Shown here in pieces: positions 11,894-36,927 of a DNA stretch of 39,553 nt. The stretch's first letter is position 1. Each line of letters opens with the position of its first letter. Made by a program: the position numbers and the translations under genes. This stretch comes from Candidatus Bathyarchaeota archaeon (lineage in GTDB: Archaea; Thermoproteota; CALKCG01; B24), in contig JAGHAZ010000040.1 in NCBI GenBank assembly GCA_021161255.1, forward strand, positions 1 to 39,553, written 5' to 3'. The notes under the pieces are model-generated. The model searched no databases. It was not told the DNA's origin and was given only the letters and a program-made list of their open reading frames with translations.

Positions 11894-12982
11894 TTAAGTT
11901 CCTACGTCGAAGTTCTCTGACCTTAGATGAGCTTCCCTCATCAGGGTTAGAGAGTACAACGTCTGGTCGTAATACCTCGGCCCGTATGATAACGTTATCT
12001 GATGGAAAATTTTATCCCGGCTTTGAACTCTTTCAAGCCACCCCTCGACGTAGATTCGCTCATCCCTGAAAGCCTGAAGCCTATACTCCTCTACGTATGA
12101 GACTACGCGTTCGACCGAATCGACCTTAGGCCCTTTTACGACTTCTTCAAGCTCGACTCCGTAGATCGAGGGCATAAAGGCTGCTTCGGAATCGTCTAAG
12201 ACCTTCAATACGGCCTTAATCCAACCCAACCGGGTGACTCTATCGAGGATGTCGTATTCGTTAACTATCTCATCCCAACTTTTAACCGGCTCAAATTCTA
12301 CTTTAACCGGTCTAACGGAGCTAGATGGCTTGTAAATCCCGTATATGAACTTCCTTCTTTGGTGAATTAAGAACAGTTTATATGGATACTTTGTGAACCT
12401 CCAGTTAAGCCTTAGAGGTTTTTCGAACTCGTTAACCATAAACCTCTTCATGTATAAGTCTTTTAGACAGTCTCTTAACTCCCTTAGGTTATCTGAGCCA
12501 TATATTACAAAGTCTAAGTCTGAAAGTTTCGGATGATGAAGCCCCAGTAGCAGCGACCCGAATACGCCGAAGTCCCCTAACTTTAACCCAGAGACCTCGA
12601 CGACCTTTATCGAGTACTGTACGCAACATATCGACAAGCTCATCTTCGCAATCCTCTGTGAGATTCCTAAGGCCATCGCTTGGAAGATATACTTCCCTTA
12701 TGAGCGCTCTAGGTACACCTGGCAGTTTTCTAGCTAACGGTTTATAGTAGACCATATATTCCGGAAATATTCCTTTCACTAGCCTGAAAGGCTCATCTCC
12801 ATAGAGCTTGTAGTAGACGGTCTCTGGATACCCCTGGGGGCCCTCGGGTTTCTCGACGTATAGAGGCTTGCGGGCACGTATTCGAGGTCGCATACGTAGC
12901 CGTCAGCCGGGTGAGTATACCCAAGCACTCTAAAGACTAGGTCGTTTAACTCGACGATATAGTCTCGGTCTCTAAGCTTCAA
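11894..12982 (-). pseudogene. Frameshifted paralogue of the upstream nucleotidyltransferase gene
   Basis: Three consecutive minus-strand frames together encode one protein of about 362 residues that parallels the intact neighbour. Part 1 (from TTG 12982) gives LNDLVFRVLGYTHPADGY, matching EGLIFYIFGYEHPEDRY of the neighbour. Near 12865-12875 the frame must move back one base (a base seems missing) to continue through FPEYMVYYKPLARKLPG. Near 12608-12612, at an AAA, it must drop one base to continue into VFGSLLLGLHHPKLSDLDF, which holds the GS and DxD nucleotidyltransferase motifs. The two shifts cancel. The sequence stays gene-like throughout, without stops in the composite frame, so the decay is recent or the shifts are base-calling errors. 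GGGAG lies 8 nt before the TTG, and the gap to the upstream gene is 14 nt. Confidence 0.7.
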
Positions 12983-12996
12983 AATTCGTCTCCCGG

Positions 12997-14019
12997 CTAA
13001 TAGAGTTTCTTAACCTTGATGTATTCTCCCGGTCTGCCTGAGCCTACCACGACCCTATATCTCTCTCCTTCACCTGAGACAGGGACCTCTCGTTCTAGAA
13101 GCCCTCTGACCTCGAGTAGATCACCCTCATAGGCCAAACCCCTATATGTACTATCCATGGCTATGACCTCTCTAGGCCTCATCTCCGGCGGAAGTCTAGA
13201 CTCCTCGTTAGCAGCTCGATATTCTGAGATCTTATAAATCGCCGGTCTGAAGTAGGATTCTTCAGCCGACTCCACCATGCATCTGAACTTCACCGTTTTT
13301 ATCGGCATCCTCTTGTAAGCCCCATAAACGTCCCGTATCTCCTCCTTTCTCCTCACGGCGTTAAAAACTACTTTAACGTCTTTATAGAGAACCTTGTTAC
13401 GCCTATGCTTGTCAAACTCGTTCTCGTAAAGAGGTTTCATGATTTTTTTATACACAAGTCTCCTTACAGTGTTGTGAACACGCCTGTAGTTTGACGCCCC
13501 ATATATGACCACGTCGATGTCCGGTTTCTCAGACTCCATACCGAGACAGAGCGAACCGTGGATCCCGAAGAATTTTAAGTCTAAATCAGCCTTCGAAGCT
13601 ACGAGCCTTATCCATTCTATAGCGATCTTCTCCAACTGGCTAGGTTCCTTTTTAGCGAGAAGCTCGGATAAACGTTCCTTCGGCCTAAAGACTTTCTCTA
13701 TAGACTCCTTTGGAACCGTTATTAACGTTTTAGAATTATACGGACAATTATACAGGTATTGGGGGAAATTTTTCTCAAAGACCTCGATGAATTTTTTGAA
13801 GTTCTCTGGACTATAGAGTTTAGCCGGTCTGACATATCTTTGGTCTTTAAGCTTCCAAGTCCACGGCAAAAACTCGATGTCGAACAGGTTCTTAAGCGAT
13901 TCGGGGATATATTTAACATAGGCTATATAGCGATCTTCAGGATGCTCGTATCCGAATATGTAAAAGATCAACCCCTCTCTCGTTTGAACCGCATCACCGT
14001 CGATAAGTCTCTCAGTCAT
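12997..14019 (-). CDS. Archaeal predicted nucleotidyltransferase (pol-beta superfamily)
   Basis: 340 residues. The N-terminal about 95 residues form a domain shared with the broken downstream copy (FYIFGYEHPEDRYIAYVKYI). The central region has the pol-beta-type nucleotidyltransferase core: HGSLCLG (154-160) followed by DIDVVIYG (167-174), giving the GS and two metal-binding Asp residues; a third acidic residue probably lies further on. The C-terminal about 60 residues are a small beta domain (EVRGLLEREVPVSGEGERYRVVVG), OB-like in pattern. It resembles the uncharacterised archaeal nucleotidyltransferases of COG1665 (number from memory, not checked). Substrate unknown; RNA or a small molecule are both possible. 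It is the first gene of a two-gene tandem duplication. ATG start, weak ribosome binding site. Confidence 0.7.
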   Translation of the reverse strand: MTERLIDGDAVQTREGLIFYIFGYEHPEDRYIAYVKYIPESLKNLFDIEFLPWTWKLKDQRYVRPAKLYSPENFKKFIEVFEKNFPQYLYNCPYNSKTLITVPKESIEKVFRPKERLSELLAKKEPSQLEKIAIEWIRLVASKADLDLKFFGIHGSLCLGMESEKPDIDVVIYGASNYRRVHNTVRRLVYKKIMKPLYENEFDKHRRNKVLYKDVKVVFNAVRRKEEIRDVYGAYKRMPIKTVKFRCMVESAEESYFRPAIYKISEYRAANEESRLPPEMRPREVIAMDSTYRGLAYEGDLLEVRGLLEREVPVSGEGERYRVVVGSGRPGEYIKVKKLY

Positions 14020-14159: not shown

Positions 14160-14423
14160 ATGTCTTACGAGTCACAATCCTATCTAACCGTTATAAGAAA
14201 CGTAGATAAAGGCCTTAAAACTAGAACTTCCATCATAAAGGCCCTCAAGGAGGGGTACACCACCATCCGGGGGATTTCCGAGGTCACGGGCATACGCTAT
14301 CAAACCGTCCTGAGGCATCTTAAAAACATGGAGAAAGAAGGTGTCGTAGCCAGAAAACCTGGAAGACCCTATAAATGGAGCTTAACCGGTAAGGGTCAAC
14401 AAAACGTCCTGAAATTCACGTGA
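14160..14423 (+). CDS. Small winged-helix transcriptional regulator
   Basis: 87 residues, one winged helix-turn-helix domain. Residues 20-60 read as helix 2, turn and recognition helix (TIRGISEVTGIRYQTVLRHL), and GVVARKPGRPYKWSLTGKG forms the wing; the last residues are a short tail. It resembles ArsR/MarR-like single-domain archaeal regulators. No ligand-binding domain or Cys cluster is present, so any effector is unknown. The ATG is nearly at the predicted transcription start. Its 3' end faces the large RNA candidate encoded on the opposite strand 35 nt away. Confidence 0.8.
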   Translation: MSYESQSYLTVIRNVDKGLKTRTSIIKALKEGYTTIRGISEVTGIRYQTVLRHLKNMEKEGVVARKPGRPYKWSLTGKGQQNVLKFT

Positions 14424-14458: not shown

Positions 14459-14802
14459 AAAAACCGTTTATCAGGTAGTGGGGAGAGGCCGAGCCTCCCA
14501 CCTCCTATAACCCGACCCGAAGGCCAGGTTATAGGCGTCCTTTCTGTGGGTTTAAGCCAACCTTTCGGCTGGCCCGTCTCCAAGCCTTGCGGCCTAGAGA
14601 CATACCCACACGGCCTATCTACTCAGCCTCTTCTCACCGGAGATTTGACCGTTCAACCCTCCAAGCCCTCCCGAGAAACCAGCTCGGTTACCCGAGTCCG
14701 GTTTCTCCCCCTGGGGAGGGAGGGTTTGGTCGGTCGAGCGGCCTCTTCTCCGTTGAGGAGAGGCCTTTCGACTTTAGACGACACTACCTTTTGACCGGCG
14801 GA
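14459..14802 (-). ncRNA. Large structured non-coding RNA, family not recognised
   Basis: GC-rich island in AT-rich surroundings, folded by eye on the minus strand. Closing helix AGGUAGUG (14789-14782) with CACUACCU (14480-14473). Inside: hairpin 14765-14740; helix 14725-14719 with 14662-14656 enclosing hairpin 14705-14675 (GUAA loop); helix 14610-14604 with 14551-14545 enclosing hairpins 14601-14576 (GCAA loop) and 14573-14556 (GAAA loop); hairpin 14535-14504 (9 bp plus 5 bp, UUCG loop closed by C-G); hairpin 14499-14481. Six G-U pairs in these helices would be A-C mismatches on the plus strand, and the loops are GNRA/UUCG only on the minus strand, although hairpin 14765-14740 alone pairs slightly better on plus. 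TATA box at 14832-14824; U5 at 14463-14459. I could not find RNase P conserved regions I/V or the SRP helix 8 motif. Confidence 0.75.
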
Positions 14803-14956
14803 TTACTATTCTCGCGTTTCAGGCTTTTAAAGTTATCTAGCTATTTTTCTAGTGTTTTCTGTTTAAATTTTTTAAATTCCTAATGTTTTTACCTTAAATC
14901 CGTGATAAACCACTTTATTCAAGTCTTTTTCCTAAAAAAGAGGGTGAATGAGGGGT
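14803..14956 (-). promoter_or_regulatory. TATA box of the structured RNA and terminator of the FBPA/P gene
   Basis: AT-rich, no gene. ACTTTAAAAG on the minus strand (14833-14824) lies about 26 nt from the predicted RNA start near 14802. Closer to the upstream gene, a T6 run on the minus strand (14939-14934), 18 nt after the FBPA/P stop, is a likely terminator, so the RNA would be transcribed on its own. Confidence 0.6.
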
Positions 14957-16060
14957 TTACGCCTTAAAGAACCTGTCTTTAAGCTTCTCTAAAGTCTTAA
15001 CTATGCCTGTGTATTCGAGCTCTTCCATACCAAGTATAGCCGGAGATATCGGACCGTTTCGTCTGATTAATTCAGCCATCTGTAACGCCGTTCTCCTAGC
15101 ATGGTCGAACGCTACGTCTTCGAACAGGTCCGCCGGACCTACGAGTTTTCCATCTGCGACCTGAAAACCTAGCCCTACGACTCTAGGTGGCCCGTCGAAG
15201 AACGAGCATCTACTATCCTTCAGACCCACAGGCATCAACGGTCCATTGTGAGAGCCTCTCATCCAACCGGCTACGAAGTGTGGCGTGAAGAAGGGTGCTA
15301 GGGTCTCGCCTACAGCCGGAAGACCATGCTGACACCTGACTATGCAAACTGGGTCATCTTTACCCACGTATCTACCGGCTATGAGTGAAAGCCTCGTGAC
15401 GCTTGCGACAGCAGCTAAAAGCTTATCGGTGTTCCTCCAGATCCTCTCGATTACATACCTACCGACCGTACCTATCAGAGCCAAGAGATCATAACTCTCG
15501 GCAGGTGTGGTTAAATCTATGTATTTACCCTCTTGAACATCCATAACCCTAAATGTGAAGCCCTCAGCCATCCTCGGATCTAACACAAGACCAGCGGTAT
15601 TCCAGGGGTCTGCGAATATCTTATACAGAATCAGGTTCCAAGCACCGGGCTCGGTTTTATCGGCTGCGAAGACTATTATAGGTTCGCTTTCCCGTTCTTC
15701 GATCTCCATCTCTGCGACGCCTGGCCCCATACCCCTAACGTTCCCTGAGAAAGCCTCAGCGAGAAGGTCTTGACCAGCCGCGTAGAGCTTCAAGGGTTTA
15801 GAAACTTTTTCGGTAACTTCTTTAAAGGTATCCCATGCCAGACCGTGTATCTCAGGGCTACTCTCACCCTTCCTATGGGTCATGAGAAGCTCGAGATCGT
15901 CCCCCGCGTTGAATACGTAGTAGTCGATTATCAACCCGTCCTCCTTGGCCTTCTGAAGCTTCTTTTTAGCGACCTCTATCTGCTTTGGGTGTACTACGTG
16001 GTGGCCGGCTAACGAACCGACATCGGCTTTTATAAGGGATATGGTTACTTTATCTCCCAC
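14957..16060 (-). CDS. fbp: Bifunctional fructose-1,6-bisphosphate aldolase/phosphatase
   Basis: 367 residues, the class V archaeal gluconeogenic enzyme. It condenses dihydroxyacetone phosphate with glyceraldehyde 3-phosphate and then dephosphorylates the product to fructose 6-phosphate in one Mg-dependent active site. The N-terminal ISLIKADVGSLAGHH holds the metal-binding Asp13 and the following residues; GRYVGKDDPV holds Tyr231 and Lys234, which match the Tyr/Lys (Schiff-base) pair known from the Thermoproteus enzyme; FFDGPP and HGLPAVGE are further family blocks. Full length. It follows the metallophosphoesterase by 10 nt and probably shares its mRNA. Its presence points to gluconeogenesis and a thermophilic, anabolic lifestyle. 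Confidence 0.97.
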   Translation of the reverse strand: MGDKVTISLIKADVGSLAGHHVVHPKQIEVAKKKLQKAKEDGLIIDYYVFNAGDDLELLMTHRKGESSPEIHGLAWDTFKEVTEKVSKPLKLYAAGQDLLAEAFSGNVRGMGPGVAEMEIEERESEPIIVFAADKTEPGAWNLILYKIFADPWNTAGLVLDPRMAEGFTFRVMDVQEGKYIDLTTPAESYDLLALIGTVGRYVIERIWRNTDKLLAAVASVTRLSLIAGRYVGKDDPVCIVRCQHGLPAVGETLAPFFTPHFVAGWMRGSHNGPLMPVGLKDSRCSFFDGPPRVVGLGFQVADGKLVGPADLFEDVAFDHARRTALQMAELIRRNGPISPAILGMEELEYTGIVKTLEKLKDRFFKA

Positions 16061-18618: not shown

Positions 18619-21054
18619 CTATAAGGAGAGGTAGTACACGTCTTCACCTATCTCCTCGGCTTCTTCAGCTGGTTCGCGGAACTCTATCTTCTCCAAGCGA
18701 TGCATATATTTCAGGTCGTCGACGAATATCTCTAGACACTTCGGTGCGAAGACAACTCCCGGTAGAGACGCGCTTAGGGGTAGTCCAAGCTTCTTCTTAA
18801 GCTTCCATATACTACTGTTGAATTTCATGAAAGGCTCAGTTAGGCTCGTTAACTCGTCTTTAACCGGTATTTTATCGGGCAAGCTTTCTTTATGAACCGT
18901 TCCCCCGTATAGTTCTCTCCATATACCGTCGGTTATGAAGGGACATATGGGTGCTAAAAGCCTCAGAACGATCCTCAAAACCTCATGTAGGGCATACCAC
19001 GCCGACTGCTGAGCCTCAGAGCTAAACCGTCCGTCTTTATTGTATGCTCTAGGCTTGATAGCCTCTAGATAGTGGTCAGCTAGTATACGCCACAAGAAGT
19101 ACTTGATACTATTGCTCGCCTCGAAGAAGTCTAGGTTCTCATAATCTCTTTCACACACTTCGATCAGTTTGTTGGCTTCGGCAAGTATCCACTCGTCCAG
19201 GGGTTCAAGCTTACTAGGTCTCTCCGCCTGAGGAAAGGACGATATAAACCTCGCGACGTTCCAAAGCTTCGTCATGAATAGCCTCGCGGCTTTGACCTTC
19301 TCCTCGGAGTACCGATAGTCTGAGCCGAGTTTAACCTCTGAGGCGGTCCAGAACCTGAAGGCGTCGGCACCGTATTTTTCGAGTATAGGCTCCGGATAGA
19401 CTACGTTACCTTTAGATTTATGCATAGCCTCACCCTTCTCGTCAAGACCCATACCGGAGATCCTTACATACTTAAACGCAGGTCTACCCAGAAGCTGATA
19501 AACCCTCAGAATCGTGTAGTACAGCCAAGTTCGTATTATCTCATAGCCCTGCGGTCTCAGTATAGACTGAGACGCCTTCTTAAACAGCTCGTCATCCCTC
19601 ATGTATCCTGAGACGTATAAGGGGCTTATGCTGGAGTCCATCCACGTGTCTAACGTCCTCCACTCGCCTTCAAACTCTGTAGAACCGCAGTACCGACACT
19701 TCTCGAAAGGCGGCTTCTCCATCCATGGCTTATAGTATCTTCCAGGCTCCGGCAAGTTCGGTTTACCGCATTTTTTACAGTACCATATCGGTATCTCCGT
19801 CCCATAGAACCTCCTTCTCGATATAGGCCAATCTATCGATACGCTGTCGACCCAATCTAGAAGCAACCGCTTAAACCTTTCAGGATAGAACTTCATCTCG
19901 TCTATTATATGTCTCAAGTCTTCGATGAAGTCAAGCTGCTTCAGGTAGAACTCTTTGACATAGATGAACTCTATAGGGTCTTTAGACCTCCAACAGATAG
20001 GTGTCTTATGTTTTATAGTCTCTATTTTCTCCAGCAACCCAGCGGATTCGAGGTCCTCTACGACCTTAGCCCTAGCCTCCTCGACTTTAAGCCCCTGATA
20101 TTTCCCGGCGTTTGCGTTCATCCGCCCATCCAGGTCGATGGCTATGACAGGTCTCAACCCAAGCTCCCTGAAAAGCCGTATATCCGCCTTATCTCCGTAG
20201 GAGCAGACCATCACAAGACCCGAACCGAACTCGGGCCTAGCGTAGGGATGCGACAGTATCGGAACCTCTCTATTATAAAGTGGGACTATAGCTGTTAGCC
20301 CTTCTAGATGCCGATACCGTTCATCCTCCGGGTTGAATATAACGGCTGCGCATGTACATAGAAGTTCAGGTCTTGTAGAGGCGACGACGATGTCTTTATC
20401 CAGCTCCTTGACTTTGAACCTCATATAGACGAGTTTAGTTTCCTTCTCCGCATACTCGACCTCAGCGTCGGCTATAGTAGTTCTACACGAGGGGCACCAG
20501 TTTACAGGATACTCTGCTTCGTAGATCAAACCCTTATTCCAAAGCGCTATAAACGTCGACTGGGTGACCCTTCGATAATCCGGATTATCGGTTTGATAGT
20601 AGTTTTCGAAATCGCAACTTAAACCCAAGCGCCTAGCTATGTCCAGTAGACCCTTCTCGACCTCGTCTAGAAACTTACGGCAAAGCTCCTCGAATTTTAT
20701 CCTATCTGATTCATGAGCACGTATCCCATACCTCTTCTCGACCTGAACCTCTACCGGTAGGCCGTTTCGGTCTACACCGAAGGGGAATAAAACCTCGTAA
20801 CCCCGCATCCTGAAGCTTCGGGCTACCATGTCTATCTGCGCGTAGTGCGCCGCTCCACCTACGTGCCATCTTCCAGACGCATACGGGGGAGGAGTATCTA
20901 TAACTATGATTGGTTTCTCCGAAGACTTGTTAAAACGGTAGAGGTTTTCCTTCGCCCAAGTCTCCAGAAGCTCTATCTCTCTTCCGACTTTCCACCGTTT
21001 ACTCTTTAGTCTCGGTTTGAAGCCTCCACTAGCCATACTCTTATCCACTACCAT
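18619..21054 (-). CDS. valS: Valyl-tRNA synthetase
   Basis: 811 residues, the compact archaeal ValRS without the long C-terminal coiled coil of bacterial enzymes. It charges tRNA-Val. Class I landmarks: DTPPPYASGRWHVGGAAHY (53-71), where WHVG stands for HIGH; the zinc-like pair WCPSC (about 197-201) and CKKCGKP with CRYCGS (about 425-475); the editing domain between them (GSGLVMVCSYGDKAD); and HKSKGN (about 545-550) for KMSKS. The GRWHVGGAAHYAQID form is typical of archaeal ValRS. AGTTTTAAAG on the complementary reading (box at 21079-21071) places the transcription start close to the ATG at 21054, so the message is probably leaderless. Confidence 0.96.
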   Translation of the reverse strand: MVVDKSMASGGFKPRLKSKRWKVGREIELLETWAKENLYRFNKSSEKPIIVIDTPPPYASGRWHVGGAAHYAQIDMVARSFRMRGYEVLFPFGVDRNGLPVEVQVEKRYGIRAHESDRIKFEELCRKFLDEVEKGLLDIARRLGLSCDFENYYQTDNPDYRRVTQSTFIALWNKGLIYEAEYPVNWCPSCRTTIADAEVEYAEKETKLVYMRFKVKELDKDIVVASTRPELLCTCAAVIFNPEDERYRHLEGLTAIVPLYNREVPILSHPYARPEFGSGLVMVCSYGDKADIRLFRELGLRPVIAIDLDGRMNANAGKYQGLKVEEARAKVVEDLESAGLLEKIETIKHKTPICWRSKDPIEFIYVKEFYLKQLDFIEDLRHIIDEMKFYPERFKRLLLDWVDSVSIDWPISRRRFYGTEIPIWYCKKCGKPNLPEPGRYYKPWMEKPPFEKCRYCGSTEFEGEWRTLDTWMDSSISPLYVSGYMRDDELFKKASQSILRPQGYEIIRTWLYYTILRVYQLLGRPAFKYVRISGMGLDEKGEAMHKSKGNVVYPEPILEKYGADAFRFWTASEVKLGSDYRYSEEKVKAARLFMTKLWNVARFISSFPQAERPSKLEPLDEWILAEANKLIEVCERDYENLDFFEASNSIKYFLWRILADHYLEAIKPRAYNKDGRFSSEAQQSAWYALHEVLRIVLRLLAPICPFITDGIWRELYGGTVHKESLPDKIPVKDELTSLTEPFMKFNSSIWKLKKKLGLPLSASLPGVVFAPKCLEIFVDDLKYMHRLEKIEFREPAEEAEEIGEDVYYLSL

Positions 21055-21070
21055 AAGGGGCCTTAAGTAG

Positions 21071-21080
21071 AGTTTTAAAG
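21071..21080 (-). promoter_or_regulatory. TATA box of valS
   Basis: CTTTAAAACT on the minus strand, centred about 22-25 nt before the ATG at 21054. It shows valS has its own promoter and is not only read through from ileS (gap 87 nt). Confidence 0.5.
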
Positions 21081-21141
21081 ATTATCGTCGATCATGATAA
21101 GGGAAGAAGAATCAGAGCGGTAAACCCGACGGAGATGCGTT

Positions 21142-24100
21142 TTACCTAAGTCTGTTTATTCCTATGAGGTACTTCCCGTCTTCCAAGTCCCACTCTTTAC
21201 GATACTCTGTCTTCGGTATCTCCTCCGTCGTCAGTACAAGCCTCTTAGCTCGCACCTCACCCGCTATGTAATCCCTCATGGTTTCCAAGAGGTTCAAAGA
21301 CTCCACGTTAGGAGCTTTAACGTAAACCTCTACGTATGCATCCACCGGAAGATCCATCTCCTTACGCATATACTGCACCCTCCTGACGACGTCTCTACCC
21401 AACCCCTCGGCCTGTAGAGCCTTGTCTATCCTCGTGTCTAGATACAGAAAACCGTGGCTAAACTCGGTGTAGGCCAAACCCTCCCTGAGCGTCTTCTCTA
21501 CAGATACGTGTTCAGGTCTGACCTCGAAGACCTCTCCTTCGACCTCGAGTATGCACCTACCCGATTCCCTGAGCTCTTTAAGCTGGTTCGGAGTTAGACC
21601 CTTTATAGCCTCCGCCACTAAGGGAGCTTTAGACCTAAATTCCCTTCCCACAGCAGACATATTAGGCGTGGCTTTCTCCACCCATAGCGTCTTCTCCTCG
21701 TCAGACTTGAGAAGCAAAACCTCTTTAACGTTAACTTGCTCCTTAAGCACGTCTGTCAAGGGTTTAAGCTTCTCGGCTAACGCTTCAGGAATACGCAGAT
21801 ATAGCCTTTTAACAGGTTGTCTAAGCTTTAACCCAGCCCTCTGTCTAACCTTAGCAGAAGCCTCGACTACCTCCCTAGCGACTTCCATAGCCTCCTCCAG
21901 AGTCGGATTCTTCCACATAGGGTCGGGCTTAGGCCACCTGTTCATGTGTATGCTCTCGGGTAGGTTCGGCTCCGCGGGTCTGAAGACGTGCTGGTAGATC
22001 TTTTCAGTTATAAACGGTATGACGGGAGCCGCGAGTATAAGGAACGTCTTAAGCACATTATATAGAACGCTGTAGGATGCGAGTTTCTCAGGGTCTTCCT
22101 CCTCTATCCACGTCTTACGGCGTATAAGTCTGATGTACCATCTACTCACATCTTCGACCATGAAATCTCTAAGCATCCTAACGGCTTCGTGGATATGGTA
22201 ACTCTCGAAGCTCTCAGTAACGCTCTCGATTAAACGCTGCGTTCTGGAGAGAATCCATAGGTCTTCAGGCTTCATATGGCCCTTAACCTTCTCCAAGCTC
22301 CATTTCGATGGGTTAAACTTATCTAAATTCATGTAGGTCGATGCGAACACGTAAACGTTCCAAAGAATATTCATGAAAGACAAGGTCTCCTTAACACCTT
22401 TCCAAGAGAACCTCAGGTCTTCCCATAGGGTATGCTGAAGCTCGTAAAACCTTAGGATGTCTCTGCCAAACTTCTCTATAACCTCCTCCGGGGCTATGTA
22501 GTTGCCCCAAGACTTATGCATCTCTCTACCGGTTTCATCTAGCACGAATCCATGCATTGCCACAGACTTATAAGGCGCCGAGCCGAAAACCAGAATACCG
22601 CACGCCAGTAGCGAGTAGAACCATCCCCTTGTCTGGTCATGACCCTCGACCACGAAGTCCACTGGATACCATTCCTTAAGCCCTTTATCGCTAGACGGGT
22701 ATCCGAGCGACGCCCAGGACGCCGACCCGGAATCCATCCAGACATCAACGACATCCAGAACCCTACGCATTTCTCCTCCGCATTCGCATCTTAAAACGAC
22801 TTTATCGACCCATGGTCTATGAAGCTTGACATCCTTCCCCTTAGACGCTTCGAGAAGTTCCCTCTTAGAGCCTATGACCCTACGCTTACCACATTTGCGG
22901 CATATCCATATCGGCAGTGGAACCCCCCAGTATCTCTGCCGGGAGATCACCCAGTCCGATATACCCCTAAGCCAGTTTCCGAACCTATTCTTACCTGCCC
23001 ACTCAGGTATCCACTTCACCTTACTGTTCTCTTTAAGCAAAAGGTCTCTGAGCCTACTCATCCTTATGACCCATTGCCTAGTAGCTCTTAGCAGTAGAGG
23101 GGTTTTGCACCTCCAACAGTGTGGATACCTGTGAACTACTGTTCCGCTGTAGAGTAGAAGCCCTTTCCTACGTAGGTCCTCGATTATCAATGGGTCTGCG
23201 TCTTTCACGTAAAGACCCGCGTATTTACCAGCCTCATCCGTGAACCTACCTGCCTCATCTACAGGCGAAACCACCGGTAAACCGTAGCGCATACCTACCT
23301 CGAAGTCCTCCTCACCATGACCGGGAGCCGAATGGACGAGGCCTGTTCCCTCGGTCAAATACACGTATTCCTCAGATAGGACAACCTTATGGGCATCTTT
23401 AAGGTTCCTCTGAACCGGTACCTCTTCGGCTAACGGAGGCTTATACCGCAACCCCTCAAGCTTACTACCTTCAAACGTCTCTAAAATCTCGTAGCTGAGA
23501 CCAGTTTCTTCAAAAACCGGGTCGACCCGTTCCTCGGCCAGGATGTAGACTTCATCCTCGACCTTAACCTTCGCATATCTATAATTTGGATGCGCCATGA
23601 CGGCTACGTTAGCGGGTAGGGTCCAAGGCGTTGTAGTCCATATGAGGAGATACTCTCCCTCCCTACCTTCAACCGGGAACTTCACGTATATCGACGGGTC
23701 CTCTACATCCCTATACTCCTGCGAAACCTCATAACCGGCGGCTAAAGCGGTCTCACACCTAGGACACCAATGGGTAACTCTTAGCGTGTTCTCTAGTAGA
23801 CCTAGCTCCTCAGCCCTCTTGATGACGAGCCACACGGCCTCTATGTATTCATCCTTGATCGTCATGTAGGGGTTTTCCCAATCCATCCAAACGCCTAGGT
23901 TCTTAAACTGCTTAGTGAGGATCCGGAGGTTTCTGAGGGCGAATTTTTTACACTCCTCGACGAAATTATCTATGCCGATATGCTCCTCTATCTCCTTCTT
24001 GCTCCTTATTCCAAGGGACTTCTCGACCATAACCTCTATCGGCAGCCCATGCATATCGAAGCCTGGTCTGTCCCTGACCTTTAAGCCTCTCATCCGTTTA

Positions 24101-24315
24101 TACCGAAGCACACTATCCTTGATCACCTTATTCCATGCCGTCCCGAGGTGTATGGAGCTAGTGACGTAAGGCGGTCCGTCTAAGAAATAGAACTTCTCAC
24201 CGTTTTCAGAAGACCTTTTGACCTTCTCATATATCCTATTTTCCTTCCACCAACGGAAGATCTCCTCCTCAACTTTTTTAGGTTCATAGCGTTTAGGTAG
24301 AAGACCTACATACAT
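21142..24315 (-). CDS. ileS: Isoleucyl-tRNA synthetase
   Basis: 1057 residues from the ATG at 24315, which begins MYVGLLPKRYEPKKVEEEI as expected for archaeal IleRS. A GTG at 24396 would add 27 residues rich in Ser, Asn and His that do not look like the family; I prefer the shorter form, whose start has a partial AAGTGAT site. It charges tRNA-Ile and edits Val. Landmarks: PPYVTSSIHLGTAWN (HLGT for HIGH, about residue 50-57), editing domain with WTTTPWTLPANVAV and GHGEEDFEVG, zinc-binding CPRC, CWRC and CRKCGK, EMHKSWGN (about 598-605) for KMSKS, and the anticodon-binding and C-terminal zinc-less extension. Full length. Located upstream of valS, same strand. Confidence 0.95.
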   Translation of the reverse strand: MYVGLLPKRYEPKKVEEEIFRWWKENRIYEKVKRSSENGEKFYFLDGPPYVTSSIHLGTAWNKVIKDSVLRYKRMRGLKVRDRPGFDMHGLPIEVMVEKSLGIRSKKEIEEHIGIDNFVEECKKFALRNLRILTKQFKNLGVWMDWENPYMTIKDEYIEAVWLVIKRAEELGLLENTLRVTHWCPRCETALAAGYEVSQEYRDVEDPSIYVKFPVEGREGEYLLIWTTTPWTLPANVAVMAHPNYRYAKVKVEDEVYILAEERVDPVFEETGLSYEILETFEGSKLEGLRYKPPLAEEVPVQRNLKDAHKVVLSEEYVYLTEGTGLVHSAPGHGEEDFEVGMRYGLPVVSPVDEAGRFTDEAGKYAGLYVKDADPLIIEDLRRKGLLLYSGTVVHRYPHCWRCKTPLLLRATRQWVIRMSRLRDLLLKENSKVKWIPEWAGKNRFGNWLRGISDWVISRQRYWGVPLPIWICRKCGKRRVIGSKRELLEASKGKDVKLHRPWVDKVVLRCECGGEMRRVLDVVDVWMDSGSASWASLGYPSSDKGLKEWYPVDFVVEGHDQTRGWFYSLLACGILVFGSAPYKSVAMHGFVLDETGREMHKSWGNYIAPEEVIEKFGRDILRFYELQHTLWEDLRFSWKGVKETLSFMNILWNVYVFASTYMNLDKFNPSKWSLEKVKGHMKPEDLWILSRTQRLIESVTESFESYHIHEAVRMLRDFMVEDVSRWYIRLIRRKTWIEEEDPEKLASYSVLYNVLKTFLILAAPVIPFITEKIYQHVFRPAEPNLPESIHMNRWPKPDPMWKNPTLEEAMEVAREVVEASAKVRQRAGLKLRQPVKRLYLRIPEALAEKLKPLTDVLKEQVNVKEVLLLKSDEEKTLWVEKATPNMSAVGREFRSKAPLVAEAIKGLTPNQLKELRESGRCILEVEGEVFEVRPEHVSVEKTLREGLAYTEFSHGFLYLDTRIDKALQAEGLGRDVVRRVQYMRKEMDLPVDAYVEVYVKAPNVESLNLLETMRDYIAGEVRAKRLVLTTEEIPKTEYRKEWDLEDGKYLIGINRLR

Positions 24316-24430
24316 GTAATCACTTCCCTTAGAGTTTGGATTTCTAGAATGTCCACATGACGAGAAGCTATGTTTAGTGCTTAATTTTTGAACCACCCAT
24401 CGTCCTCAAGCACATAGTAACCATAAAGGT

Positions 24431-30195: not shown

Positions 30196-31701
30196 TTGAA
30201 GGTTAGGCTTCTGGAGGGTGAGATGCAACTTCTTAAGGCCCTCGAAAAGTTTAATGGAGAGACCTACGACGAGAGGCTCGTCTCTGAGACCGGTTGGCCG
30301 TCTGACAAGGTTACTACTATGGCTTTGAACATGAGTGAGAGAGGGGTAGTGAAGGTCTCGGTCGAGGAGGAGGTTTGGATTTGGCTGACAGATGAGGGGT
30401 TAAGATATGCACGGATGGGACTACCTGAGAGGCGTATACTCGAGCAGGCTATGGCTAGAGGTGGAGTAAAAATTTCGAAGCTTGAAGGAGTTGAGGACTG
30501 GGAGAAACCCATAGGCTTGGCTTGGTTCAGGAGGAAGGGCTGGGGCGTTATACGAGGCGGTAGAGTAGAAGCGGCCGGTGAGTTCCCTAAGGGAGCCGAT
30601 GAGAAGCTTATAGAACTCATAGCCTCTAAGGGTAAGGTTCGTTTAACAGAGTTACCAGAGGAACTGAGAAAGACGGTTAAGACCTTGAAATCTAGAAGGC
30701 TTGTCGAGACCGGGAAGGTCACTAGAAGACTGATCTCTCTTACGGAATTGGGCTGGGGCGTTTTAAGGGGCGATGTCGAAGTTCTGGAGGAGGTTTCGAG
30801 GCTAACGAGAGACCTGATCGTCTCCGGCAGATGGAGAAATGTAATACTTAAGAAATACGACGTGTCGCTCCCCAGCTATAGGGCGCCTATAGGCCGGTTA
30901 CATTTCTGGAGAGAGATTTTAAACCACATCAGAAGGGTCTGGGTCGAGATGGGGTTCAAGGAAATGGAGGGGCCCATACTCGAGACATGCTTCTGGGACT
31001 ACGACGCCCTATACGTGCCTCAAGACCATCCTGCTAGAGACCTTCAGGATACGTTTTATGTTAAAACTCCTGGAAGAGGTAGGCTTCCGAATCCTGAGCT
31101 TGTCGATAGGGTTAGACGAACTCACGAAGATGGGTGGACTACGGGCTCGATAGGATGGAGGTACGAGTGGAGTGTCGAGGAGGCTAGGAGAACGCTGCTT
31201 AGAACTCATACGACCGCGGTATCGGTTAGAACTTTAGCGATCCTTAAGGAGGCCGAGCTACCTGCTAAGTTCTTCTCTGTCGGTAGGGTTTTCAGAAACG
31301 AGAAGCCAGACCGCACGCATCTATGCGAGTTCTACCAGACGGAGGGTATAGTAGTAGACGAGAACGCTAATATGAAGCACTTGGTAGGCTATCTCAGAGA
31401 GTTCTTCAAGAGACTTGGGTTTCCAGAGGCTAGATTCCGACCTGCATACTTCCCATATACCGAGCCGTCGCTAGAGGTCGAAGTATACCATCCACCGACA
31501 GGTAAGTGGATCGAGCTGGGTGGAGCTGGGATATTTAGACCCGAGGTCGTAAAGCCACTGTTAGGTAGAGATATCCCCGTTTTGGCATGGGGTCTCGGGC
31601 CTGAGAGGATGGTCATGCTAAACTACGGGCTTAAAGACATCAGAGAGTTGATCATGAACGACTTGGAGACGCTTAGGAGAGCACCGGTCTGGATGGGGTG
31701 A
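30196..31701 (+). CDS. pheS: Phenylalanyl-tRNA synthetase alpha subunit
   Basis: 501 residues, the long archaeal form. The N-terminal about 200 residues are winged-helix-like DNA/tRNA-binding repeats (e.g. WIWLTDEGLRYARMGLPE, LISLTELGWGVLRG); the C-terminal catalytic class II core has motif 2 VFRNEKPDRTHLCEF (about 374-388) and motif 3 around GAGIFRPEV and AWGLGPERMVML (about 443-478). It pairs with PheT to charge tRNA-Phe as an (alpha beta)2 complex. TTG start with GAGGTG 7 nt upstream; 13 nt after trpS and 6 nt before pheT. Confidence 0.95.
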   Translation: MKVRLLEGEMQLLKALEKFNGETYDERLVSETGWPSDKVTTMALNMSERGVVKVSVEEEVWIWLTDEGLRYARMGLPERRILEQAMARGGVKISKLEGVEDWEKPIGLAWFRRKGWGVIRGGRVEAAGEFPKGADEKLIELIASKGKVRLTELPEELRKTVKTLKSRRLVETGKVTRRLISLTELGWGVLRGDVEVLEEVSRLTRDLIVSGRWRNVILKKYDVSLPSYRAPIGRLHFWREILNHIRRVWVEMGFKEMEGPILETCFWDYDALYVPQDHPARDLQDTFYVKTPGRGRLPNPELVDRVRRTHEDGWTTGSIGWRYEWSVEEARRTLLRTHTTAVSVRTLAILKEAELPAKFFSVGRVFRNEKPDRTHLCEFYQTEGIVVDENANMKHLVGYLREFFKRLGFPEARFRPAYFPYTEPSLEVEVYHPPTGKWIELGGAGIFRPEVVKPLLGRDIPVLAWGLGPERMVMLNYGLKDIRELIMNDLETLRRAPVWMG

Positions 31702-31707
31702 AACAGC

Positions 31708-33402
31708 ATGCCGGTTATAAGAGTCGGATTAGAGGATTTCAGAAGACTGGTTGGGCTTAGGCTTTCCTTGAGTCGTCTTAGAGAGGAAATCCCTATGATG
31801 GGGCTAGGGTGGGAGAGAGATGACCCTGAGGGGTTTGAGGTAGAAGTCTTTCCCAATAGACCTGATATGCTTAGCCCCGAAGGACTTGCCAGGACCTATA
31901 AGGGGTTTATAGGTCTTGAGAGAGGTGTGCCTGATTACGTGGTTAAACGCGGTTTCTACGAGGCTTATGTAGACGCCGCCGTTAAATCCGTCAGGCCGTA
32001 TATAGCCTTCGCGACTATTAAAAACGTCCCCATGGATGAGGAGGTGTTTAAGAGCATCATCCAGATCCAGGAGAAGCTTCACATATCATATTGTAGAAAC
32101 CGTAGAAAGGGCTCTATCGGTGTCCACGACCTCGATAAGCTTAAACCCCCGGTGAGGTATACGGTTAAGCCTCTTAGCTTCAGGTTTAGACCGCTAGACT
32201 CTGAGGAAGAGATGAGTATACGTGAAATCCTTCGAAGACATCCGAAGGGCGTAGAATATGGCCATCTATTAAGCGGGTTTAAGTATTGCCCGATCTTAGA
32301 GGATTCTCAGGGCATGGTTCTATCCATGCCACCGGTGATAAACTCCGAGTACACGAGGGTAACCCTCGAAACCAAGAACCTCTTCATAGACTGCACAGGT
32401 CTAGACTGGAGGACCGTGAACTCCGTCTTAAATATAATAGCCACCTCCCTTGCAGAGCGGGGTTGCCAGATATACACCGTCAAGATTCACTATCCATACG
32501 ATACCCCCGTCGGTAAAGAGGTTGAAACCCCTGACCTAGCCCCTAGCGAGATGAAGCTTCCACTAAGCCTCGTCGATAAAGTCTTTGGTGAACATCTCGA
32601 TGCCGAAGAGGTCGTTAAACTCTTGGCTAAGATGAGGTTCGACGCGGTCAAGCTTTCTGAGGGAGAACTCCTCGTAAAGATCCCGGCGTATAGAGTCGAT
32701 ATAATGCACCCGGTGGACTTGGTTGAGGACGTTATCATAGCGTACGGCTACAATCTTATAGAGCCTGAGATCCCTCAGTTCGCGACCATAGGTGGTGAAA
32801 GCCTGTTAGAAAGATTTTCCTCTAAGGTTAGGAGTATCATGGTAGGCTTAGGCTACCAGGAGGTTATGACTGAGATTCTAACGAATCCCAGAGACCTGTT
32901 CGTTAAAATGAGAGTTAAACCTGAGCCTGTGGTGGAGCTTGAGAATCCTAAGACAGTCGAGTACACGGTCTGCAGGAGCTGGCTTCTACCCGGTTTGATG
33001 AAGGTTCTAGCTAGGAATAGACATAGGGAGTACCCGCAGAGGATATTCGAGGTCGACGACGTAGTCGTCTTAGACGAGAACTCCGAAACCGGAGGAAGAT
33101 CCCTCAGAAAGCTAGCTGCGGTATCGATACACTCAGAGGCCGACTACGCGGAGGTTAAAGCCGTAGTAGACACTTTTCTCGACATCCTTGCAGTCAAGCA
33201 CAGGGTCGAGCCAGGGATTCATCCGAGTTTCATAGATGGAAGGACAGGATTTATAAAAACCCTTAAGGGGGAGACCTTCGGATTCCTAGGCGAGATCCAT
33301 CCAGAGGTTCTGATAAACTTCGGATTAGAAAACCCTACGGTAGGGTTCGAGATAGACCTTGAGGCGATCATGAGGCTTAAGGGGTTTGGACGGAGACCCT
33401 AG
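31708..33402 (+). CDS. pheT: Phenylalanyl-tRNA synthetase beta subunit
   Basis: 564 residues, the archaeal/eukaryotic-size beta chain. The N-terminal B1-like part (MPVIRVGLEDFRRLVG) leads to the B3/B4 editing domain (about 90-270, e.g. CRNRRKGSIGVHDLDK), a B5 winged helix (about 275-345, ending VDLVEDVIIAYGYN) and the catalytic-like B6/B7 core (about 355-560, with GFLGEIHPEVL near the end). Its start ATG follows pheS by 6 nt, with GGGGTGA across the pheS stop as ribosome binding site. Last gene of the series. Confidence 0.95.
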   Translation: MPVIRVGLEDFRRLVGLRLSLSRLREEIPMMGLGWERDDPEGFEVEVFPNRPDMLSPEGLARTYKGFIGLERGVPDYVVKRGFYEAYVDAAVKSVRPYIAFATIKNVPMDEEVFKSIIQIQEKLHISYCRNRRKGSIGVHDLDKLKPPVRYTVKPLSFRFRPLDSEEEMSIREILRRHPKGVEYGHLLSGFKYCPILEDSQGMVLSMPPVINSEYTRVTLETKNLFIDCTGLDWRTVNSVLNIIATSLAERGCQIYTVKIHYPYDTPVGKEVETPDLAPSEMKLPLSLVDKVFGEHLDAEEVVKLLAKMRFDAVKLSEGELLVKIPAYRVDIMHPVDLVEDVIIAYGYNLIEPEIPQFATIGGESLLERFSSKVRSIMVGLGYQEVMTEILTNPRDLFVKMRVKPEPVVELENPKTVEYTVCRSWLLPGLMKVLARNRHREYPQRIFEVDDVVVLDENSETGGRSLRKLAAVSIHSEADYAEVKAVVDTFLDILAVKHRVEPGIHPSFIDGRTGFIKTLKGETFGFLGEIHPEVLINFGLENPTVGFEIDLEAIMRLKGFGRRP

Positions 33403-33406
33403 AAGG

Positions 33407-33492
33407 GTTCCATGCAGACGGACCCCTCCGAGAAGCCGGTAGGCTGGCTATGAGGACGGGGTTACCCAAGCATGGAACAGGCCCTATGGGCC
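33407..33492. ncRNA. Structured element between pheT and the small RNA promoter
   Basis: Starts 5 nt after the pheT stop. GTTCCATGC (33407-33415) pairs perfectly with GCATGGAAC (33470-33478); inside it ACCCCTCC pairs with GGACGGGGT with one bulged base, capped by a small AGCC/GGCT hairpin. A second hairpin, GGCCC-TAT-GGGCC (33480-33492), follows at once. Strand is undecided: no G-U pair tells them apart. It could be a stable 3' end of the phe mRNA, or a minus-strand RNA driven by TTTTATAA (33513-33506). I do not recognise a family, and it is not a tRNA. Confidence 0.45.
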
Positions 33493-33505
33493 GCAATCCA
33501 AACCC

Positions 33506-33513
33506 TTATAAAA
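33506..33513 (+). promoter_or_regulatory. TATA box of the 33.5-kb small RNA
   Basis: TTATAAAA, 26 nt before GGTGGGCACC at 33535, exactly where the long RNA helix begins. This is the most canonical TATA box in the window and precedes no reading frame. Confidence 0.7.
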
Positions 33514-33534
33514 CGGCCTACGAACCTCTCTGAC

Positions 33535-33669
33535 GGTGGGCACCTGGGTCCCATACGGAGAGAGCCGGCCGAGCAGGGCGTAGACGCCCTTCGATGACGC
33601 TTGGGTGTTAGTCGTATGGGATATAGACACCCAGGTGTCCACCCAGAGTATCGACTTCTAAATCTTTTT
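33535..33669 (+). ncRNA. Small rod-shaped non-coding RNA, family not recognised
   Basis: GGUGGGCACCUGGGU (33535-33549) pairs with ACCCAGGUGUCCACC (33629-33643), 15 bp with one G-U that would be an A-C mismatch on the other strand. CCCAUACG (33550-33557) pairs with CGUAUGGG (33613-33620), 8 bp. The two helices stack except for an 8-nt bulge AUAUAGAC (33621-33628) on the 3' side only. The 55-nt apical part includes AGGGCG-UAGA-CGCCCU (33575-33590). A T5 run follows at 33665-33669, so the RNA is about 110-135 nt. It lacks C/D boxes, a 3' ACA box, 5S rRNA shape and the SRP helix 8 motif. Confidence 0.65.
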
Positions 33670-33724
33670 AACGGAGTGCCAGGTATTTGGGATATCCGCC
33701 AAAGACTTGCATCGAGGTGGTTTA

Positions 33725-34579
33725 GTGAAACGACTTAGAAATTGGCTACTATTTTTGGTTGTTGTTTTGATATGGAGTTCTAACTGGCCGATTATGAAGG
33801 TGGGTCTAACTTATGTCGACCCGTGGAGCTTTATCTACCACAGGTTTCTACTGTCTACGACCGCTCTTTTTCTGCTTCTATTAATTTTAAAGAGGAAGGT
33901 CCCAACCGATAGAAGAGTTCTTGTTAGACTTTTCATACTAGGTCTTATCACAAGCATAGGGATAACATTGACGAGTTTAGGTTTAGTGTATGAGAAATCT
34001 GGGGTAAGCGCGATCTTGACGTATACCCAACCTTTATTCGTCTTCTGCATGGCTATACCGTTTTTAGGCGAGAAGGCTAGTATCGGTCGAGTTCTAGGCG
34101 TTTTCATAGGATTTCTAGGGGTTGTAGTCCTCTCTACTAGAGGCGGTAGCCTTATCGATAGACTTGATCTACCTGTTTTTCTCTTGGTAGCTGGTGCGTT
34201 TCTTTGGGCCGCCGCGATCATATATTACAAGAAGTTTCTAAGCCATGTAGACCCCGCCGTGACGAACATATTTCAGCTAGGAGTCGGCGTCGTCTTGCTT
34301 ACTCCGGTGATCGCTCTGAAGGGCTTAGCGTTCCCTCCTTCACTTGAATACATCCCAGTCATTCTCTACACATCGGTTTGTGCCCAAGGTGTGGCGTTAA
34401 CCCTATGGGTCCTCCTATTAAGAGAGGAGGAGGCGACCGTCCTATCTTCCTCAAGCTTTATGGTTCCGGTAGCTGCCTTCATGTTCGGGTGGCTGATACT
34501 CGGAGAAACAGTGGAGCCGAAGGTACTACTTGGGTCAGCTCTTATACTTACTGGTGTTTACATAGTCAATAAAATCTAG
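33725..34579 (+). CDS. EamA/DMT family transporter
   Basis: 284 residues from the GTG at 33725, chosen because GAGGTGG lies just upstream (33714-33720); a TTG at 33707 would place that site inside the gene. Ten membrane helices in two EamA repeats (about 1-138 and 150-284), with the typical WSSNWPIMK in helix 1, YTQPLFVFCMAIPFLGEKAS at the end of repeat 1 and LSSSSFMVPVAAFMFGWLILGE at the end of repeat 2. Drug/metabolite exporter; substrate unknown. CTTTTTAAC at 33664-33672 may be its TATA box and also overlaps the T-run that ends the small RNA. Confidence 0.88.
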   Translation: MKRLRNWLLFLVVVLIWSSNWPIMKVGLTYVDPWSFIYHRFLLSTTALFLLLLILKRKVPTDRRVLVRLFILGLITSIGITLTSLGLVYEKSGVSAILTYTQPLFVFCMAIPFLGEKASIGRVLGVFIGFLGVVVLSTRGGSLIDRLDLPVFLLVAGAFLWAAAIIYYKKFLSHVDPAVTNIFQLGVGVVLLTPVIALKGLAFPPSLEYIPVILYTSVCAQGVALTLWVLLLREEEATVLSSSSFMVPVAAFMFGWLILGETVEPKVLLGSALILTGVYIVNKI

Positions 34580-34610
34580 GCTATCCAAAGGGTCTTGAAC
34601 GTAGTAAACG

Positions 34611-34620
34611 TTTTTAAACC
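34611..34620 (+). promoter_or_regulatory. TATA box of the tyrS operon
   Basis: TTTTTAAACC after the transporter gene, predicting transcription start near 34641 and a leader of about 27 nt for tyrS. It would drive the four tightly packed genes that follow. Confidence 0.5.
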
Positions 34621-34667
34621 CGTAGGTTTTCTCCATGCTTATAGATTGGTTAGAGGGTTGACCTGGT

Positions 34668-35750
34668 TTGAAGGTCGAGGAAGCTGAAGCTCTGATCAAG
34701 AGAGGGCTTGAAGAAATTATAACAGAGGATAGACTTAGAACTCTTCTAGAGGAGGGTAGACGGTTAAGAGGTTATATAGGTGTCGAACCGTCGGGTTTGT
34801 TCACATTGGGATGGATTATATGGGCTCGTAAAGTTAAAGACCTCATAGACGTAGGCGTCGACTTCATCCTTCTGCAGGCGACGTGGCACGCGTGGATAAA
34901 CGATAAACTAGGCGGAAACCTAGAGAACATAAGGCTATGCGCCGAGTACATCGAACATTGTCTCCAGGCTTTAGGCATTCCTAGAGACGGCTATAAGGTC
35001 GTCTACGCAGACGAGCTCGTCTCTACAAGCGACTACTGGGGCATAGTGCTTAGAGTCGCGAAGTCTCTGACGTTGAAGAGGGTTAGAAGAGCCTTAACCA
35101 TAATGGGTCGTAGAGCCGAGGAGGGGGCTATGGATTTCTCTAAGCTCATATATCCATGTATGCAAGTGTCCGATATCTTCTACCTCGACCTAGACCTATG
35201 CCTCGGAGGTATGGATCAGAGAAGAGCCCACGTATTGGCCATCGAGGTCGCCAAAAGGCTTGGTAGGAAAAAGCCTGTGGCTCTTCATACACCCCTACTC
35301 ATAGGGCTCGCAGGCTTGGGTAGGATGGAGGGGGCTATAAAGGGAGAGGCGCTGTATGAGTTTAAGATGAGTAAGTCTAAGCCTGAAACCGCCATATTTG
35401 TACACGACACCGAAGAGGAGGTTGAGAAGAAGTTGTTGAAGGCTTACTGTCCTCCTAAGATGATCGAGAATAACCCGGTTCTAGAGATATGTCGTCTTAT
35501 ACTGTTTCCTGAGCCTGGGTTTAGACTTAAGATAGAAAGACCGCTGAAATATGGTGGAGACCTAGAGGTCCAAAGCTACGTCGAGCTTGAAGACCTATAC
35601 TTCAAAGGACAGCTACATCCTTTAGACCTCAAAAACGCCGTGGCTAGGGCTTTAAATGAAAAACTTAAGCCGGTTAGAGACTATTTTAAGACCGTAAACG
35701 AGGCGCGTGAACTCTACGAGAAGATGATGAGCTTAACGGTTACGAGGTGA
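34668..35750 (+). CDS. tyrS: Tyrosyl-tRNA synthetase with unusual HIGH motif
   Basis: 360 residues, archaeal TyrRS, which charges tRNA-Tyr. Tyr-binding residues known from the Methanocaldococcus enzyme are kept (Tyr36 in YIGVEPSG; the Asp in MQVSDIFYLDLDLCLGGMDQ). The KMSKS loop is FKMSKS (about 232-237), preceded by an insert relative to the Methanocaldococcus protein. The HIGH box (IHLGH there) reads FTLGW (45-49), so both His residues are replaced. The anticodon-side LHPLDLKNAVA block near the C-terminus is normal. TTG start; its TGA overlaps the alternative GTG of the next gene. Confidence 0.92.
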   Translation: MKVEEAEALIKRGLEEIITEDRLRTLLEEGRRLRGYIGVEPSGLFTLGWIIWARKVKDLIDVGVDFILLQATWHAWINDKLGGNLENIRLCAEYIEHCLQALGIPRDGYKVVYADELVSTSDYWGIVLRVAKSLTLKRVRRALTIMGRRAEEGAMDFSKLIYPCMQVSDIFYLDLDLCLGGMDQRRAHVLAIEVAKRLGRKKPVALHTPLLIGLAGLGRMEGAIKGEALYEFKMSKSKPETAIFVHDTEEEVEKKLLKAYCPPKMIENNPVLEICRLILFPEPGFRLKIERPLKYGGDLEVQSYVELEDLYFKGQLHPLDLKNAVARALNEKLKPVRDYFKTVNEARELYEKMMSLTVTR

Positions 35751-35755
35751 TATTG

Positions 35756-36211
35756 TTGAAGTGGACCTTAGAGCGTGTAGAGCTTCTCATGGAAGCCCTC
35801 GACGAGTTGTTTAAGGAGTGGAGGGACGGGGCATGCATAGTAGTCGAGGGTAAGAGGGATAGAGATGTCCTTGAAGACCTCGGTTTGAAAACCGGCGTCG
35901 TAGCGTTTAAGACGTTAAACTGTTGCATATCGGACGCGATCGAGAGGTTATGCTACGAAGATAAGGTGGTTATCCTGACGGATTTCGACCGTGAAGGTGA
36001 GGAATTAGCATCCCGTATATCTGATGTTTTGACTAGAAGGGGGGTTGATGTTAACCTTGAGGTCAGACGGAAGCTATCATATATCTTAAAAGGCGAGGTC
36101 AAGGGATTCGAGGACCTAAGCTCTCTACTCGATAGGTTATCGGCCAAGTTTAAGATGTCTCTGACCTCGTTTGTCACAGGGTATATGGAGCGTCTAGGGG
36201 AGAATCCTTGA
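35756..36211 (+). CDS. Small Toprim-domain protein
   Basis: 151 residues from the TTG at 35756, which has GAGGTGAT 4 nt upstream; a GTG at 35747 would sit within that site. Toprim fold: VVEGKRDRDVLEDLG (Glu31) and ILTDFDREGEEL (Asp76, Asp78), the Mg-binding acids shared with topoisomerases, DnaG primase and RNase M5. It resembles the short archaeal Toprim proteins of COG1658/UPF0292 type, related to 5S rRNA maturase; its own substrate is unknown. Its stop overlaps the start of the PHP gene by 4 nt (TTGA). Confidence 0.85.
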   Translation: MKWTLERVELLMEALDELFKEWRDGACIVVEGKRDRDVLEDLGLKTGVVAFKTLNCCISDAIERLCYEDKVVILTDFDREGEELASRISDVLTRRGVDVNLEVRRKLSYILKGEVKGFEDLSSLLDRLSAKFKMSLTSFVTGYMERLGENP

Positions 36212-36906: not shown

Positions 36907-36927
36907 GTTCTGTACGTCCATCCGGTC

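Follow-up and report, generated by a model that had tools for sequence, protein, structure and literature searches.

To our knowledge, the widespread large RNAs of archaea besides ribosomal RNA are those of RNase P and the signal recognition particle (SRP), and we know of few large single-copy structured RNAs that are conserved over a lineage of class rank. Archaeal free-standing structured non-coding RNA genes also include those for HgcG and the H/ACA-type guide RNAs, the guides being hairpins with ANA boxes and K-turns. As a broad kind, large, ornate, orphan structured RNAs are already known from bacteria, where OLE, ROOL and GOLLD form ribonucleoprotein (RNP) or RNA-only complexes (PMC12286853, PMC9723947). 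The window analysed here, a stretch of 39,553 nucleotides from a Candidatus Bathyarchaeota archaeon, holds a structured RNA that is new at the family level. That an RNA gene exists in the window is close to certain, and from its fold, its alignment and its homologues we infer a non-coding RNA gene with a predicted transcript of ∼344 nt (14459–14802, minus strand).

A structured RNA of about 340 nt on the minus strand at 14459–14802 had been proposed from the sequence alone (the original prediction), and fold energy, shuffling and window ranking all confirm it. Read from 14802 to 14459, the RNA has a minimum free energy (MFE) of −199.7 kcal/mol (z −11.2), which none of 100 dinucleotide shuffles equals; the MFE of the complement on the plus strand is −165.7 kcal/mol. 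Among 786 strand-specific 300-nt windows, taken from both strands and GC-normalised, the RNA ranks first by a wide margin. It forms an island of 58% GC, with an AT-rich promoter region on one side and, on the other, the end of a gene convergent with it. Its ends are joined by a helix, P1, in which AGGUAGUG pairs with CACUACCU and, past an A-rich internal loop, an outer GCCG pairs with CGGU. The loops include GUAA, GCAA and GAAA as well as a C(UUCG)G, and the RNA ends in a U5 tract (14459–14463, minus strand) that is probably an archaeal terminator. The TATA box, end-joining helix, tetraloops and terminal U5 that were originally described are all present in the sequence.

In several respects the window RNA resembles both large archaeal RNAs. 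With archaeal SRP RNA (RF01857) it shares a length of about 300 nt, a terminal closing helix, a long rod and a single-copy, lineage-wide occurrence, and with archaeal RNase P RNA (RF00373) a size range, a terminal helix P1 and a multi-arm fold. However, neither model matches the window RNA or its homologue in genome G002 at E values up to 10, and by eye the helix 8 motif of SRP RNA is missing. The CR I/CR IV/CR V core of RNase P RNA was not found either, inspection by eye showing neither a CR I/CR V pair nor a segment like CR I; an ACAGAAA segment is carried by the window's own genus (g1) and reads GCUAAAA in G002 and G003. The window's genome (G000; 1.67 Mb, 85 contigs, 96% complete) encodes both RNAs as separate genes, a genuine RNase P RNA on contig C56 (195.5 bits) and a genuine SRP RNA on contig C82 (174.4 bits), in agreement with the earlier reading that the motifs of both are missing here. 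No SSU rRNA gene was found in this metagenome-assembled genome. OLE, ROOL and GOLLD differ from the window RNA in being bacterial and longer, and none of them was matched in a permissive Rfam scan; the HgcG and H/ACA-type families were matched by neither the window RNA nor that of G002.

The description of the family as unrecognised also held against Rfam as a whole. In Rfam 15, nothing in the entire window reaches the gathering score, and a permissive search with the window RNA gives no E value below 1, the best matches being at chance level (E 1.8–3.5). For the RNAs of the more distant family described below (f3), the best Rfam matches are microRNA-type hairpins on the rod, all under the gathering score. 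ARAGORN finds no tRNA and no tmRNA in the window, and among the titles and abstracts of the open-licence literature no structured Bathyarchaeota RNA or large orphan archaeal RNA matches the window RNA. Inspection by eye gave no support for reading the P1 loop as a kink-turn or as an H/ACA or C/D element. A protein-coding reading is contradicted by stop codons in each of the six frames: those that are long in G000 (108–111 codons) shrink to at most 54 codons in G002 and G003 and, on that strand, to at most 63 in G005 and G006, and homologues differ in length by 56 nt, which is not divisible by 3.

The comparison covered all class genomes available (n = 7, G000–G006), which fall into the window's family f1 (G000–G003, genera g1 and g2), f2 (G004) and f3 (G005 and G006). 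In f1 and f3 the gene order is kept, with FBPase and the RNA followed by a gene on the opposite strand for a winged-helix (wHTH) protein and then by two nucleotidyltransferase genes, NTase1 and NTase2. The upstream, same-strand gene encodes fructose-1,6-bisphosphate aldolase/phosphatase, the bifunctional archaeal FBPase (14957–16060, minus strand; NCBIfam NF041126, 573.7 bits), is syntenic in f1 and f3, and has its stop 154 nt before the start of the window RNA. Convergent with the RNA lies the gene for the small wHTH protein, which is ArsR/TrmB-like (14160–14423, plus strand; Pfam HTH_5 and TrmB), adjoins the RNA in 7/7 class genomes and has its stop codon 36 nt from the RNA 3′ end; it is a putative conserved small regulator. 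A relative of this protein, 87 aa long, occurs at most once per genome at the cutoff used and has varied neighbours outside the class. NTase1 (12997–14019, minus strand) is encoded ∼440 nt further downstream on the strand of the RNA and is a neighbour in f1 and f3; it has no Pfam match of its own, and a paralogue at 11894–12676 matches NTP_transf_2. NTase2 is split in the window by apparent frameshifts at 12489–12982, which reflect either assembly error or decay, and is intact in G002 (355 aa), G005 and G006.

The RNA itself occurs in 7/7 class genomes, complete in six and as a 3′ fragment in G004, where the contig ends, and its recovery throughout the class by BLAST, covariance models and synteny provides the conservation in relatives on which the original prediction depended. 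BLAST with the window RNA finds G001 (94% identity) and diverged matches in G002 and G003, and the four f1 RNAs align over their full length (alignment A1) with the rod shortened by 56 nt. Neither BLAST nor the first covariance model detects the RNA in G005 and G006, which belong to another family of the same order. In these two genomes FBPase and the wHTH gene are again adjacent, and the 550-nt gap between them contains an RNA of the same plan with the ends GCCGGUC...GAUAAACGGC; the ends common to f1 and f3 are GCCGGUC...GAUAAACGG. In G004, the wHTH gene lies at a contig end, with P5 and the P1 strand, the 3′ portion of the RNA, coming after it; this portion aligns to G000 better than 2000/2000 shuffles. 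Two partial models were built, R1 from the four f1 sequences and R2 from G005 and G006 only. R2 finds the window RNA at 14612–14463 (E 1.5e-4) and the G003 RNA (E 1.1e-4), both as end-to-end alignments with the GAUAAACGG terminus in register. A search with R1 does not find G005 or G006, so the link between f1 and f3 is weak in one direction; synteny, promoter and ends nonetheless agree. The middle parts of f1 and f3 RNAs cannot be aligned by sequence, and between the families sequence is almost lost while the architecture of P1, a long rod P2 and hairpins P3 to P5 is kept.

The common plan runs from P1 through P1d (4 bp), the P2 rod, P3, P4 and P5 to the P1 3′ strand. P1 is built of an outer GCCG/CGGC, an A-rich internal loop and an inner helix of 6–9 bp. 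In the window, its 5′ strand (14782–14799, minus strand) reads GCCG, GUC, an A-rich bulge and GGUAGUG, of which GCCGGUC is common to f3, and it pairs with the 3′ strand at 14463–14480, which reads CACUACC, UGAU, AAA and CGGU. A CACUACC-type strand with GAYAARCG is found in f1 and f3, and the corresponding strand in G004 is CGCCUGGCAAACGGCG. The P1d 5′ strand CGUC (14777–14780) pairs with GACG at 14536–14539; this pairing is CGUC/GACG in f1 and CCCC/GGGG or CCUC/GAGG in f3. P2 (14625–14765) is a long, fast-evolving rod arm with two-sided changes in f1; it is shortened by 56 nt in the sister genus and exceeds 44 bp in f3. P3 (14546–14609) is a three-way arm with two GNRA-capped hairpins (14601–14576 and 14575–14554) and five pairs showing two-sided changes, and its loops exchange GCAA for GAAA between genera while always remaining GNRA. 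P4 (14504–14535), a UUCG-capped hairpin with two pairs showing two-sided changes, is replaced in f3 by a different hairpin with a GUA/GAA internal loop. P5 (14481–14502), the hairpin beside P1, is kept in all genomes, including the G004 fragment, where 0/2000 shuffles equal it.

Fold strength is high throughout, with z values of −11.2, −10.4, −11.2 and −11.2 in f1 and −21.6 and −15.7 in f3. The original prediction had made covariation in relatives a test of the RNA gene. In A1, 99.4% of the pair cells hold standard pairs and 11 pairs show two-sided changes, with 0/500 shuffles equal, and as a control, structures slid along the alignment are only 32–48% paired. Between G005 and G006 (alignment A3), 25 two-sided pair changes are found, 15 of them in the main rod helix, again with 0/500 shuffles equal. 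Because only six full sequences exist in all, these are counts on small alignments, for which the expected power of R-scape is low. Some details of individual arms may be added. The invariant GUA/GAA loop of f3 P4 (L046 8137–8272 in G005; L047 9561–9695 in G006) resembles the sarcin-ricin motif. The f3 rod carries an invariant G-tract at its tip whose complement is the P3 loop UCCCCCG, and pairing between them could, judging from sequence, join two RNA molecules. The P4 region of G004 (L045 2583–2870, at the end of C92) consists of tandem ∼30-nt hairpin units interrupted by Ns, which are either an arm expansion or an assembly artefact.

A TATA-box-like element, CTTTAAAA (14825–14832, minus strand), is conserved as a block in every genome whose 5′ region can be read. 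In the window it lies at 14832–14825, 33 nt 5′ of GCCGG, and CTTTAAAA or CTTAAA(A/T) is found 30–36 nt before the GGUC of the RNA in 6/6 readable genomes, within spacers that are otherwise poorly conserved. The 3′ end is U-rich in G000, G001, G004 and G006, with a weaker U-tract in G002 and G003 (AUAUUCUC) and in G005 (CAUCCCUUCUAUUCU). The RNA strand of f1 is favoured over its complement by 33–42 kcal/mol in 3/4 genomes and by 18.7 kcal/mol in G001. Energy within f1, TATA spacing and U-rich ends thus agree with the minus-strand assignment made originally. In f3 the two strands fold nearly equally, differing by only 1–3 kcal/mol (for example −225.5 versus −222.4), so the strand call there rests on the promoter and the ends.

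We propose, with a probability of roughly 55%, that the locus is a free-standing gene for a non-coding RNA, driven by an archaeal TATA promoter of its own, and that this RNA acts as a stable RNP scaffold. A transcript of ∼340 nt would start from this promoter and fold into a closed, branched molecule, in which P1 would join the ends, P1d would open into the P2 rod and the P3 arm, and P4 and P5 would precede the closure of P1. The constant P1 internal loop (GGUC-A-rich/GAYAAACG) would be the main protein-recognition site of the scaffold, and the P2 rod may act as a length-tolerant spacer or as a double-stranded platform. Alongside the observed structure, covariation, synteny, class-wide presence and promoter-like block, transcription, RNP assembly and the role of the P1 loop are what we infer. 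Between f1 and f3 the shape stays constant, as do the P1 internal loop and the letters that flank it, and the letters of the unpaired core are not shared. Since the unpaired core conserved in one family is missing from the other, the RNA is more likely a scaffold than a ribozyme whose active site is fixed or a regulator that pairs through a seed. From its complexity the RNA had been called a ribozyme or RNP scaffold, and only the second half of that suggestion is favoured here.

It is possible, though unlikely, that the RNA is a trans-acting or antisense regulator that pairs with mRNAs such as the convergent wHTH transcript or the FBPase mRNA. The convergent arrangement, at 36 nt from the wHTH stop and in the same position in f1 and f3, would suit such a role, but the RNA is almost wholly paired, no accessible unpaired seed stretch is conserved from f1 to f3, and the wHTH frame of G003 contains a stop while its RNA is intact. 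Less probable still is a ribozyme that itself cleaves, ligates or processes RNA. The size, the closed fold with several arms, the retention of GNRA-type loops and the long invariant unpaired f1 segments UCUAAAGUCGAAAGG and AGUAGAUAGG are consistent with catalysis; however, these segments are missing from f3, none of the ribozymes in Rfam matches, and the genome has a separate RNase P. We regard as distinctly improbable a cis element, either a structured 3′ end for the mRNA of FBPase or a leader for the nucleotidyltransferase gene downstream. Although both genes lie on the same strand (154 nt and ∼440 nt away) in an invariable order, the RNA has a U-rich end and is preceded at constant spacing by a conserved TATA block of its own, a leader would traverse the entire wHTH gene in antisense, and FBPase in neighbouring classes has no such 3′ structure. 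A DNA-level palindrome or mobile inverted repeat is suggested by the f3 rod, which is almost a perfect inverted repeat and folds on either strand, but is very improbable for a single copy per genome at a fixed locus, with several distinct hairpins that each show compensatory change and the strand bias described for f1. It is hardly credible that the RNA arose by duplication of RNase P or SRP RNA followed by strong divergence, since the similar size and the ACAGAAA of genus g1, which recalls an RNase P segment, stand against complete copies of both RNAs elsewhere in G000, the loss of ACAGAAA in G002 and G003, and the absence of a match to either model.

Outside the class, no credible match emerged when 398 phylum genomes were searched with the models. 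A wHTH orthologue is present in 102/398 of these genomes, 95 of them outside the class, and no such RNA adjoins it at the 23 outside wHTH loci inspected. The FBPase 3′ flanks of the nearest outside-class genomes show no model match and no end motif, mostly with an ORF directly next. From models and homologous neighbourhoods alike, the RNA thus seems to be a class-wide, lineage-specific gene, with the possibility of homologues elsewhere that have diverged past these models. Several isolated matches were treated as chance: a BLAST match in G024 (L006; E 9.7e-4) to a 37-nt GC-rich stretch with the rest of the RNA absent, a covariance-model match in G034 (23.8 bits, 47 nt) to one hairpin only, and weak model matches in G004 C60, G001 C25, G006 C5 and G001 C18 (9.9–15.9 bits). 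A pattern search in viral contigs gave nothing.

As a stand-alone RNA kept at the same chromosomal place (in 6/7 genomes plus the fragment), it is apparently a third large RNA besides those of RNase P and SRP. More tentatively, and with odds a little short of even, this third RNA could be of the housekeeping type, the core of a new class-wide RNP machine in which the closing helix and ends are fixed and the arms are freely rebuilt. Deep uncultured archaeal lineages contain RNA families absent from Rfam, and this one, whose homologues are recognisable only by architecture and position, offers a concrete target with defined ends and a promoter, for which six full sequences and a search model are available.

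Elsewhere in the window, a cluster of translation genes (18619–24396 and 30196–39261) includes valS, ileS, pheS, pheT, a Trp/Tyr-type synthetase and a TmcA-like acetyltransferase. The second most structured site of the window (33405–33660, plus strand; z −5.3) is a GC-rich intergenic region after pheT; it shows a weak partial match to HgcG (E 1.1) and is possibly another non-coding RNA, perhaps H/ACA-like.
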